Positions 2,690 to 63,390 of a stretch of 64,000 nt of DNA are shown here, piece after piece. Every line of letters begins with the position of its first letter. Within the stretch, counting starts at the first letter, position 1. The stretch is taken from contig OY540820.1 of NCBI GenBank assembly GCA_961205875.1, positions 10,292,001-10,356,000 on the forward strand, given 5' to 3'. A program made the position numbers and the translations under genes. The notes under the pieces are model-generated. The model had not been told where the DNA came from, searched no databases, and worked only from the letters and a program-made list of their open reading frames with translations. Source of the stretch: Sialis fuliginosa. Its lineage: Eukaryota; Arthropoda; Insecta; Megaloptera; Sialidae.

Positions 2690-3441
2690 GTGGCGTACTA
2701 ATGGAGGGTATTTTTCAACCCTCTCTCCCCCTAAAAAAATGTTCATAAATCACCAAAAAGGTCAATTAAAATTGATAAATTAACAAATAAGTTGAACAAT
2801 TAATATCTCAGCTTGGCGCAATCCTACAGACTTAACTTTTTTTTTAAATATAGCTTTCACCATTATCTTTAATGTCCGGTATTATAAAGGAGCTAGCAAA
2901 TTTGTTAGCTAGCAAGCACTTTGAACTGAGATATCAAACTTATATGACAGTTCTTTTGGAGTTTGTTGATGATTTTGACAAGTTTCGCGCACGCATTGTA
3001 GGTAAATACCAGCGGTATTAAAACAGTGGTGATGTTATGAAAATTATTTTGTACGGTCAACGATGCCAACTGTATTACAATTAGTTGAAGTGTCACTGCT
3101 CTAAATTTCATAGTTAATCCATAGATACTAGTACAGAATTAATACCCCATTTGAAAGTAATTGCTAGCTAGCAAACTTTGCTAGCTCCTTTATATTACCG
3201 GACATAAGACTATCAAATACCCTAAGACCGTCGAGACCCCCCTTCCCCAATTATTAACAAATTCAAAATGATAAATTAACAAATAAGTTGAATAGTTACT
3301 ATCTCAGTTTGGCGCGATCCTAAAAACTATAAAAAAGTTTACTCAAAAATTATAGCCTGTATACTGATTTGAACCAAAAAAGTCACTTATGTCCCATTGT
3401 GCATAGCCCCACCTGGCCTGGCGCCCCTAAAGCCGGCGCTG
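2690..3441. mobile_element. Repeat family G, copy 1 (hAT-like ends, internal tandem units)
   Basis: It shares long stretches with 44,357-44,970: CCCTCTCTCCCCCTAA, AATATCTCAGCTTGGCGC, GCCCTAAGACCGTCGAGACC and GATTTGAACCAAAAAAGT. It ends in CTAAAGCCGGCGCTG, which is nearly complementary to the start of the second copy (CAGTGCCGGTCTTAGC), so termini of hAT type are likely. It contains about two ~165-bp internal units where copy 2 has three. A family C element is inserted at 2873. Confidence 0.6.
2873..3204 (-). mobile_element. PIF/Harbinger-like MITE family C, copy 2
   Basis: A 332-bp element ending TGTCCGGTATTATAAAGGAG and TTTATATTACCGGACA. It is flanked by TAA at 2870-2872 and 3205-3207. The paralogous repeat at 44,357-44,970 keeps the uninterrupted site (CTTTAAGATTATC), which directly confirms the insertion and its 3-bp target duplication. 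Confidence 0.85.
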
Positions 3442-10372: not shown

Positions 10373-11313
10373 CAAGTATATAAAAATAATAATGCTATTA
10401 TTTCTACTCTCTAAATGTACCCGAAGAAGTAGAATAGCCCCTTAAACTAATTTTATAGATGTCTCAATTAACTAGAATAAATATGAAATATTTCTTCTGA
10501 AACTAAAGAATAATGTTAAAACATTTTTTTAATTTTCCAAAAGCTATAAACCGTAAAATGACATAATGGCTGTGAACGTGTTAAAATATCTGGTACATAA
10601 ACAAAACCAGGCGGATTCAATTTTTCTTGTAACGCACAGTCACATATTTTTTTTAAAAAGCTTAATCGTGTTTCGTCCACAGCAAACTCCATGTTCCAAC
10701 AGGCACACATATATCCATATGACATGTATTATAAAGTATGGACATTAATAAGAAAAAGCACTGTAATACGCGTATGTATTATTTGAAGTATCCGAACGCC
10801 AAAGTTGAATGAATCGTTGTTTTTAAAAACAGGGGAGACTGAATCTGAATATTTTTATGATTCGGGTTCAAAGGACCCCACAATTAGGTTTCACTCAAAT
10901 ATGATGAATATTATCGGAAATAATACTTTGCATTATGCTGATCAAAATTTGTCATTCCATAACTTCTAGACTACAAGCACAAAATAACTGAAGATTTTTG
11001 CATTTTTAACTTTCGAAATTCAACCCCTATGGGGGTAAAAAGGGGTGTAAAAGTTTTTTTCGTTGGATTTACTTGAAACTTACAATTAGCATAAATATTC
11101 TACAATACATATAATTCAGTATTTTTTTTGTTATACGTGCCTAAACAGCCATTGAAGGGGTGAAAACCACCCTCAAAATTTGAATTTTAAATTAAAAATC
11201 AAACTTAAACTGTCAGATTAGTTATTCTAAAAATGTGTATTATAATACTGACATTAGGATATTAGAAAACTAATATACATAACAAACAACAGACAAAAAC
11301 TATGGTTATGACT
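10373..11313. other. Gene-free stretch, nothing firmly recognised
   Basis: The segment 11,020-11,190 carries CAACCCCTATGGGGGTAAAA and AAGGGGTGAAAACCACCCTC, phrases that look like a worn dispersed repeat. No second copy is in the window. No coding signal was seen. Confidence 0.3.
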
Positions 11314-11445
11314 TATCAAATACAAATCCCCTAACCATAACCATAAAGAGTGTCTTTAAGACTCTGATGATGATAGCATTGCTATTGAAACACGTGTAAG
11401 TCTAAACTCTTACAATTTTTATGGTTAGGGGATTTGTATTTGATA
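11314..11445 (+). ncRNA. Hammerhead-like self-cleaving ribozyme (type I) with extended stem I
   Basis: The core reads CTGATGA (11364-11370), then stem II ATAGC/GCTAT (11373-11377 with 11381-11385, loop ATT), then GAAA (11387-11390). A minimal palindromic stem III follows (ACAC/GTGT, 11390-11397), with predicted cleavage after A11398. Stem I is AGACT (11359-11363) paired with AGTCT (11399-11403). It is extended by AAGAGT/ACTCTT and by a 26-bp outer helix (11314-11339 with 11420-11445). Open-ended stem I and a loopless stem III match the hammerheads known from Penelope-like elements and retrozymes, which act as dimers. Oddities are an extra U (11371) at the base of stem II, where a G-C pair is normal, and A rather than C at the cleavage site. 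No reverse transcriptase is nearby, so this may be a solitary remnant. The fold is seen in the sequence; activity is inference. Confidence 0.55.
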
Positions 11446-11979
11446 ATATACATAATACAAAGGCGAGTTTTATTTCTGACAAATTCCATTAACATTTTTT
11501 ATATACATATTAAAAAAATTATTCAGATAAATTATATGGAAACAATAAATAATCAGTATTTAATAGTCATACCATGTTGGGAAGTTGGTTGCAAGGACCT
11601 CAAGGGTCGAACCCACGGCTTGTTTATTTAGAAACTATCAATTTGAGACAAAAAGTACATTAAAATGTTTTTTGGTCTAATATAACTTGGATTATTATAT
11701 TTTAGATTTTTTTACTTATTGTTAGACAAATTGAATTTTAAAAAAACGTAGAGAGCAGATAAATGTGCCTAATAGTTCCGCCACTGTTCCGAATATATTA
11801 AATAAAATTAATATTCATATATGTATATTACATATAAACGAACAAAATAGATAAGATTGTAGTTGAAATACTATATTAACTATAGATAATTTGTCTTATC
11901 ATTATTAATAACTAGAATAGTAAACTTAACAACATCAAAAAATTATACATTTAGTTTCATTGAGTAAAACAAAATTAAA
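11446..11979. other. 5' flank of the first esterase gene
   Basis: AT-rich, with no repeat recognised. It should hold the promoter of CXE-A, but no convincing TATA/initiator pair could be picked from the many AT-rich hexamers. Confidence 0.3.
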
Positions 11980-22872
<10,893 letters not shown>

Positions 22873-36500: not shown

Positions 36501-40014
<3,514 letters not shown>

Positions 40015-61050: not shown

Positions 61051-62542
61051 TTTTTTTTAAGGGGGGGGGCACTAGTTTAAAAAATATGGCACGTTAAAAT
61101 GTATAACCAAACAAGCGGAATTTGACCCTTATTCTATTATTTTTTTAATCAAAAATGGTGTCTGCGAGGGGCTTTAAAGCGAATCCAAAAAAAAACAAAA
61201 AAATTGTACACTTACCAAGACGTGTGGGATGTCAAAATGTACATCTCAATTAGTAGAATATGACCATATTTTTTTTTCTAACTCAAAAATGGCGCCTGTA
61301 GGGGGCTAAAAACAGTATTTTATTTTACCCTTTATAATTTTCTATAGGGGATTAAATTTCATTAATCGGCTTTTGAGAGTAAGTCGTCGTTTTGATTGCC
61401 ATCTTATTATTATCTAATTCAGTTAAAAATTACCGCAGAAGCCTACTAACGAATAGATAAAAGTTAACGTATTAGTAAAGCTTCAAAACCGTTTGGAATG
61501 TTAAAGAATATAACTCGTTGAATAGAACGAAAACAATAAATGGCGCGTTTTCAATACCAATGTCAAACTATTCTACTGACTGCAAATGTGAAACGTGAAA
61601 ACAGTCTCGCATTGACACTTTTTTCATTATCTAAATTTCAATGTCAATGTTTTTATTTGCAAAAAAGTTTCATTGCCAATACAACAAAACTATTTACCGA
61701 AATTGAAAAATCATTTTTTTTATTAATGATACGTCTAAAAAAGTCTCGCCCATGGCGAAAGACGAACAAGAACCGGCCCTGTTCCATTTGATTAAGAAGA
61801 CTGACAGATAACTTCTATACTATCGTAAAACCGCCCCCAATCTGTTGCTCGTAAGATAAATAAAATATTATTACAAAATGTCTCAAACTAAGTTAAACAA
61901 AAACTCGTAAATGAAAGGGTTAAAACTTCAGAATCAATTCTAATTATACTTTAAAAACACATCGAGGCAAACCCACTTTACAACTCATTGGGGAAACATT
62001 ACGAATCAATTTATTGCAATAGGGGAGGCGACATTATTAGCTAAAGAAAGAAAACAATAGCAAAAATTGGCGCTTGTTTCACAAGAAAAGAAACATCTCC
62101 ATTTCAATTTTCAAACATTTCTTAAATTTCTCACTTTTTACGATAATGTATGCCATTTATTAGAAATACGACGTTACAGAAACAATATAAAATATGTCAT
62201 ACGTGTTGAAGCTTATGTAACATATGACGTATATATACATACGTACATACACACAATTTATATTGAATACTTGTTTGACAGGCCGTGTAAATATTTTATA
62301 TCGATTTCTATCTTTATTACCAACTGTTCACATATTTAAGTTACTAGAAGAGCAATATGTATTTATATGATTATAAAAAAATCAAAGAATTAATTGCATT
62401 ACCTAGCACTTTCCTACATATCTGCATTTATCTTTATATTATTTTTTTGCTTTATTATTTATAATAATCATAATCAAAAAATTCTGTCAAAAGGGTCATA
62501 AGGGTTCCGAAGTACGCACTACTTTAACTTTAAAAACTTTAA
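61051..62542. other. Gene-free stretch with repeat Y copy 3
   Basis: 61,130-61,310 shares AAAAATGG(T/C)G and GATGTCAAAATGTACATCTC with family Y. 61,330-62,500 has no recognised repeat or gene. Frames at 61,540-61,791 and 62,067-62,339 lack motifs. Confidence 0.35.
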
Positions 62543-62874
62543 TGTCTGGTATTATAAAGGAACTAACAAATTTGCTAGCTAGCAAGCACTTTCAAATGAG
62601 ATATCAAACTTATATGACAGTTCTTTTGGAGTTTGTTGATGACTTTGGCAAGTTTCGCGCACGCGTTGTAGGTAAATACCAACGGTATTAAAACAGTGGT
62701 GATATTGTGAAAATTATTTTGTACGGTGAAAGATGCCACCTGTGTAACAATTAGTTGAAGTGTCACTGCTCTAAATTCCAAAGCTAATCCATAGATACTA
62801 GTACAGAATTAATACCCCATTTGAAAGTAATTGCTAGCTAGCAAATTTTGCTAGCTCCTTTATAATACCGGACA
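62543..62874 (-). mobile_element. PIF/Harbinger-like MITE family C, copy 3
   Basis: 332 bp, TGTCTGGTATTATAAAGGA to TTTATAATACCGGACA. TAA duplications at 62540-62542 and 62875-62877. About 90% identical by eye to copy 2. Confidence 0.85.
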
Positions 62875-62877
62875 TAA

Positions 62878-63390
62878 AACAAAGAAAAGAAAATTGTTAT
62901 CGGATGACTAGGAGCTGAGCTACAACCAATTTAAGAACAGCGGAGGGGGGGAGACATCTTTAATAGCCGCTATAATGATGTTCTACACGGATTTTAAAGT
63001 GACTCCCTATCTGAAAAACTTTCTTTTGACCTTATACATATACCTATGATCACAGAAAGAGGCATACCCCAATCAAAAAGTGCAACGTTTTTTTATGTAC
63101 CAGACGTACTATACTATACTATACAGCGATTAAGTTTTAACACCATGTAACTCAAAATTGACTATTTTACAGGGGCAATAAAAAAAAGCAATATAAATTC
63201 AATGAGATTACAACCATTCTCTTTCAGATATTTTTGCCTTTAATTAAAATTTTTACCATTGACTTTAGTAAAAGTTTCTGATAAATCAAACCATGCGTCT
63301 AATAATTATACCCAATGATGTCAATATCTCAATAAGCCATGTTAAAACTTGAGCGATGATATATCAGATAAAACCAAAAACTCGTAGATA
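62878..63390. other. Gene-free stretch, nothing recognised
   Basis: AT-rich sequence without a supported gene or repeat. Confidence 0.35.

Follow-up and report, generated by a model that had tools for sequence, protein, structure and literature searches.

A hammerhead-like motif in a probable leader-only insertion of a Penelope-like element in Sialis fuliginosa

In a 64,000-nt stretch of Sialis fuliginosa DNA (hereafter, the window), we found that a motif resembling a type I hammerhead ribozyme is carried by an insertion of a Penelope-like element (PLE), ~161 bp in length and enclosed by a 12-bp target-site duplication. The original prediction, made from the letters of the window, had described the motif as having no element around it, a statement that the insertion overturns. 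We consider it quite probable that the site is a leader-only (pLTR-only) insertion of an endonuclease-bearing PLE, with the hammerhead-like motif at the 5′ end of the element RNA and with two sites at which reverse transcription starts.

The motif occupies positions 11355-11406 of the forward strand and has the layout of a type I hammerhead whose stem III is palindromic and without a loop (ACACGTGT), and in this respect the original prediction holds, with all core parts in place. Stem I is formed by TTT(A)AGACT and AGTCTAAA, and the pairing predicted at its base, AGACT/AGTCT, was confirmed at 11359-11363 and 11399-11403. The conserved CTGATGA (11364-11370) is followed by an extra T at 11371, between A9 and stem II, and then by stem II itself (GATAGC/GCTATT, 11372-11377 and 11381-11386), which is capped by the loop ATT. 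Further downstream are GAAA (11387-11390), stem III (11390-11397) and A17 (11398), with the predicted cut between 11398 and 11399 (U50|51, counting from the first base of the leader). The NUH triplet, CUGANGA, GAAA and stem II of a type I hammerhead are all present, plus the one extra base at stem II.

A descriptor scan of the window returned this motif as its single match. We defined the as-found form by a stem II of at least 6 bp, a stem I of at least 5 bp and a stem III of at least 3 bp, with one extra base allowed. In 3732 dinucleotide shuffles of the window a loose form occurred 12 times and the as-found form 0 times, and in 3,243,613 simulated CTGATGA contexts the as-found form arose 91 times. 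For the eight CTGATGA of the window, the chance expectation of the as-found form is ~2e-4 per window and ~1.4 per genome of 392 Mb (20 contigs). Taken alone, the motif is rare for one window and within chance genome-wide; it amounts to more than chance because of its element context and its counterparts beside other PLEs. The covariance check suggested with the original prediction came out negative, with no Rfam hammerhead match at the gathering score across the whole window and none up to E=10 within 11250-11500.

Reading from the left, the insertion consists of a tail of ~34 nt, an inverted arm and the leader in sense orientation. The left target-site duplication, TAATATACATAA, lies at 11271-11282, its last bases overlapping the end of the tail by at most 4 nt, and the same 12 bp recur on the right at 11444-11455. 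The tail is antisense (minus strand, 11279-11312, U132 to U99) and occurs at the left end only. It is followed by the inverted, likewise antisense, leader arm (minus strand, 11313-11340, U98 to U71), by a junction between the arms that varies from copy to copy (11341-11348) and by the sense leader (plus strand, 11349-11446, U1-U98), which has no tail at its right end and whose first base, U1, is the putative RNA start. The inverted arm and the 3′ part of the leader (plus strand, 11419-11446) are the two strands of a long helix of 28 bp with 100% complementarity. This part of the leader contains an ATG at 11421-11423, which may be the start of the PLE ORF, judging by its likeness to the ATGGT of other PLE families. 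The window copy is probably a recent leader insertion, and probably inert, since the promoter is absent and the inverted arm favours another fold.

The window is rich in inverted repeats, with 39 pairs of at least 20 nt. The repeat at 12600-13578 has two perfect 414-bp arms with 151 nt between them, and copies of CTGATGAGTCATAAG lie mirror-wise outside it, at 12533 and 13618. Short inverted repeats at 1810-2126, 2872-3205 and 62538-62879 share a common arm type, ATGTCCGGTATTATAAAGGAGCTAGCAAATTT, and form a family recurrent in the window. Carboxylesterase-like exons, recognised by eye, stand in a row at 13902-40014, with a 68-bp tandem duplication (39578-39722) across the start of one of them.

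Two samples of genomic copies were assembled. A search of the genome with 11300-11460 gave 1156 candidates, of which the best 40 were scored and proved 87-100% identical to the query; set A consists of 39 fetched copies and the window copy, and, being ranked by likeness to the latter, is biased to its type. A query with the tail gave 1115 candidates, of which 40 were scored, all identical over 75 nt, and supplied the 39 new copies of set B, from which L082 was omitted as occupying the same place as L018. By its construction, set B can exclude copies with two tails but not copies with none. Candidates of the first look that were left unfetched are not confirmed copies.

Set A shows a common plan: the antisense arm meets the sense leader head to head, one of the two ends bears a tail of ~34 nt, and a target-site duplication encloses the whole. 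The duplication measures 11-14 bp in 29 of the 39 parsed copies and 4-8 bp, a length near chance, in the remaining 10 (L012, whose right arm was not found in this comparison, was unparsed). Over both sets, 61 of 79 copies are flanked by repeats of 9 bp or more, versus 48 of 2000 mismatched flank pairs. A short duplication of variable length is typical of endonuclease-bearing PLEs, in which an inverted pLTR and a tail of 30-40 bp on one end are optional features. The tail follows a rule, with exactly one tail in 67 of the 68 two-armed copies, zero in one and two in none. Set A accounts for 39 one-tailed copies out of 40, L031 being counted among them, with L044 lacking a tail and no copy having two; set B comprises 28 two-armed copies, each one-tailed, 10 sense-only copies and L083, whose odd arm was counted as neither two-armed nor sense-only. 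The presence of one tailed and one untailed end fits one start per internal site.

The inverted arm, in turn, differs from insertion to insertion. Twelve of the 40 set A copies are identical across 85 nt of the sense leader, yet they show 12 different junctions (L036 and L040 were unparsed in this comparison). The 28-bp helix is therefore a product of insertion, its inverted arm remade each time, and the earlier description of a 26-bp helix that extends stem I has to be abandoned. Copies L067, L069 and L081 are near-complete palindromes joined at U1/U2, and 81 of 148 arm ends lie at U1-U4. As genomic evidence of cleavage, we sought an accumulation of arm ends around the predicted cut and found none, with 7 of 148 at U49-U53; a smaller pile, of 13, at U57-U58 is read as junction microhomology. 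L066 has a TATATAAATAG box whose first base lies 34 nt upstream of U1. We infer that U1 is the RNA (transcription) start and that the insertion templates were uncut at the hammerhead.

Outside this genome, a search of viral contigs with two patterns revealed no relatives. Bacterial or archaeal MAG contigs yielded two 19-mer matches that, as judged by eye, had nothing further in common, phage records gave short partial matches only, none covering 80%, and a protein search with an ORF of the window gave no match.

The owner of the leader was sought with the sequence upstream of U1, and eight promoter-bearing longer copies were fetched from the 40 scored among 164 candidates. Seven of the eight carry coding sequence for the C-terminal part of a PLE endonuclease immediately upstream of the leader, in the same orientation; the eighth, L118, gave no endonuclease match. 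Copy L114 has the order inverted leader, endonuclease fragment, leader and tail, as is also described for Penelope of Adineta vaga (PMC3846280), and its fragment scored 22.5 bits against GIY-YIG, for a cut-off of 22.6. The endonuclease fragment of L066 runs antisense to its leader. The frame of L117 ends in SSGSVVSKVYK and a stop, and the upstream TATA box overlaps the final codons and the stop codon of the PLE frame in L117 (1018-1051), as it does in L114 (VYK-stop = GTATATAAATAG). The leader probably belongs to an endonuclease-coding element.

To the tail, inverted pLTR arm, target-site duplication and upstream endonuclease, all of which bear out the hint at PLEs given in the original prediction, can be added the presence of the hammerhead core beside other PLEs of the genome. 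Starting from a PLE RT that was found next to a GIY-YIG match, we obtained 126 scored RT matches from 487 candidates, and ten PLE 3′ regions, related to one another, were picked from these 126. A core of CTGANGA, one extra base, a stem II no shorter than 3 bp and GAAA occurs on the sense strand of all ten, compared with 1 of 10 on the antisense strand and 12 of 3000 shuffles. The extra U noted in the prediction is thus real, but it is no peculiarity of the window copy, one extra base being present in all ten regions. We counted, by eye, four distinct stem II sequences in these regions and a fifth in the leader; since there are only four, the ten regions do not represent ten independent cases. 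In total, the core was found in 14 of 18 PLE regions scanned, those beyond the ten being L085, L096, L098 and L102. It was absent from L099, L100, L101 and L103; three of these (L099, L101 and L103) were scanned with a stricter form only, and in L100 the ORF start is present and the core still absent.

Palindromic centres of stem III, seen by eye in several PLE families, read AGCGCT, TAGCTA and ACGT. In a constrained-fold test with 100 flank shuffles per sequence, 10-61 of the shuffles closed stems I and III as well as the real sequence did in nine relatives, compared with 28 for the leader and 3 for L085. Stems I and III are therefore unsupported in the relatives, as shuffled flanks mostly close just as well. 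As regards the compensatory changes named with the original prediction, relatives with different but paired stem II sequences exist, whereas the closure of stem I lends no such support. Stem II does not line up in alignments of the family cores, and Rfam reported no hammerhead up to E=5 in L096 and L098-L103, nor at the gathering score in L104-L113.

PLE frames of ~896 aa also occur in tandem arrays with a period of ~3.56 kb (C10:984968-1019582, C7:62181-89787 and others; L096, L097). These arrays are often paired head to head, and the arms at the L097 junction measure 1278 nt and are 99% complementary.

We propose the following course for a leader-only insertion. The PLE RNA would start at U1, with the hammerhead-like motif at its very 5′ end and the ORF start after it. 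Reverse transcription would begin internally, at either of two fixed positions (~U98 or ~U133), and use of the site pair nearest the RNA 5′ end would yield a cDNA of merely ~98-133 nt and hence a leader-only copy. Two such cDNAs, one per target strand, would then be joined head to head at or before the RNA start; alternatively, a single cDNA may snap back, stopping ~35 nt short. The outcome would be a foldback copy with one end tailed, the other untailed and ~11-14 bp of the target duplicated. This order of priming events is one that we infer.

Self-cleavage of the PLE RNA is predicted from the motif, as is any role for it. The most likely role would be the cutting of tandem or read-through PLE transcripts, with cleavage perhaps occurring as a dimer or with protein help. 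The predicted folds point elsewhere, with a best fold of -56.0 for the window copy, compared with -50.1 when stems I-III are forced and -52.6 when stems I and II are, and in the sense leader alone the hammerhead fold is likewise not the best. Such folds are what would be expected if the window held a PLE leader copy with a dead hammerhead, that is, an inherited core kept through its overlap with start-site and ORF-start sequence, an explanation to which we give a little less than an even chance. It would also account for insertion templates that reach U1 uncut, with ends that do not lie at the cut, and for the silence of Rfam. The core sequences bear on it in both directions. Among the 75 readable copies (4 of the 79, without a readable core, were left out), 11 have a C at U4 of the core, as a dead hammerhead might; CTGATGA is nonetheless found in 61, CCGATGA in 10 and others in 4, and the same count of 61 of 75 retains CTGATGA and GAAA together. 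That other PLEs are accompanied by the core with a stem II that differs in sequence yet still pairs likewise counts against a dead motif. The hammerhead of an Anolis PLE is a precedent for both sides, since, in the portion of that study available to us, it cut only when protein was added, and its mutants inserted as usual (PMC11167929).

A second explanation is a metazoan retrozyme, a non-autonomous element spread via small circular RNAs that arise from hammerhead cleavage. In its small size, its low GC, its type I hammerhead and its duplications of more than 4 bp, the insertion fits the description of animal retrozymes in the sections at hand (PMC7229834), but the copies end at U1 and at U98/U133 instead of at the cut, where there is no excess among 148 arms, and the leader is probably part of an endonuclease-coding element. 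The sole tandem among the copies seen, L012, is a local duplication holding a leader copy plus its flank, and hammerhead-bounded dimers are absent from the 79 copies. With no hammerhead-bounded unit repeats among these copies and an endonuclease-linked leader, this reading was rejected as very unlikely. A MITE-like DNA transposon with terminal inverted repeats and a hammerhead core by chance, suggested by the perfect 28-bp arms, the many inverted-repeat pairs of the window and the ~1.4 as-found motifs expected per genome, was rejected as scarcely credible, because the duplication is not of fixed length (mostly 11-14 bp) and the arms, which differ between copies with identical leaders, are not inherited, and because 10 of the 39 copies in set B are sense-only, the tail is restricted to one end and the leader is linked to an endonuclease.

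Within the preferred reading, that of a leader-only PLE insertion with two reverse transcription starts, two features stand out. One is the additional base that follows A9, the other the one-tail rule. We suggest tentatively, as something possible rather than probable, that the hammerheads of PLEs in this genome form a variant of their own, marked by a palindromic stem III and by a base that is regularly added after A9, and that their leader-only copies are 'strong-stop' insertions governed by the one-tail rule. On this view each insertion would preserve a record of PLE integration down to the single base, with two cDNAs, started one at each of the two internal sites of the RNA, that meet at or before its capped start. 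In those portions of the literature that were searched, which did not extend to Cervera and de la Pena 2014 and Lunse et al. 2017, neither feature was met. Many tiny insertions with readable duplications show, to the base, where the two cDNAs and the RNA start, and models of PLE integration can therefore be tested on genome sequence. Should the added base prove general, it may help to explain why covariance searches overlook hammerheads of PLEs.

An extra base between A9 and helix II also occurs in the hammerhead of chrysanthemum chlorotic mottle viroid. This plus-strand hammerhead is a natural one with an extra core base, as far as the available text describes it (PMC3705267); the viroid is an unrelated replicon and a single case, whereas several PLE families have the extra base here. 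Like the minimal hammerheads reported from the pLTRs of PLEs, the Sialis motif is of type I with little or no stem III, a form that may act as a dimer according to the accessible parts of these reports (PMC6155905, PMC7761336), one of which calls the role of hammerheads in PLEs a mystery (PMC7761336).

The architecture of the copies resembles that of Penelope elements of Adineta vaga, for which the sections available describe an inverted pLTR, a 31-bp tail on one inverted pLTR and a target-site duplication (PMC3846280). In Pen2a_Av, as in Sialis, the inverted pLTR stands head to head with the direct pLTR, the tail occurs at one end, the duplication is short, a palindrome marks the head junction and the ORF starts within the pLTR, as it would in Sialis if the ATG of the leader is read correctly. 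The Adineta vaga elements have their ORF between pLTRs and are present in few copies, whereas most of the sampled Sialis copies are leader-only and ~160 bp long, and hammerheads are not mentioned in those sections (PMC3846280). The enzyme of the Anolis PLE PAc provides the closer parallel in mechanism. In the text available, it starts reverse transcription at two internal sites, one on either side of the tail, and it both cleaves and extends the two target strands, and the PAc ORF starts at stem II of the hammerhead, an arrangement that we liken to that of the leader described here (PMC11167929). The same text makes no mention of a one-start-per-end pattern of genomic copies. PAc shares two internal starts, both-strand extension and a hammerhead with the course proposed for the Sialis elements, but it is a vertebrate element studied in vitro, whereas the Sialis pattern is read from genomic copies (PMC11167929).
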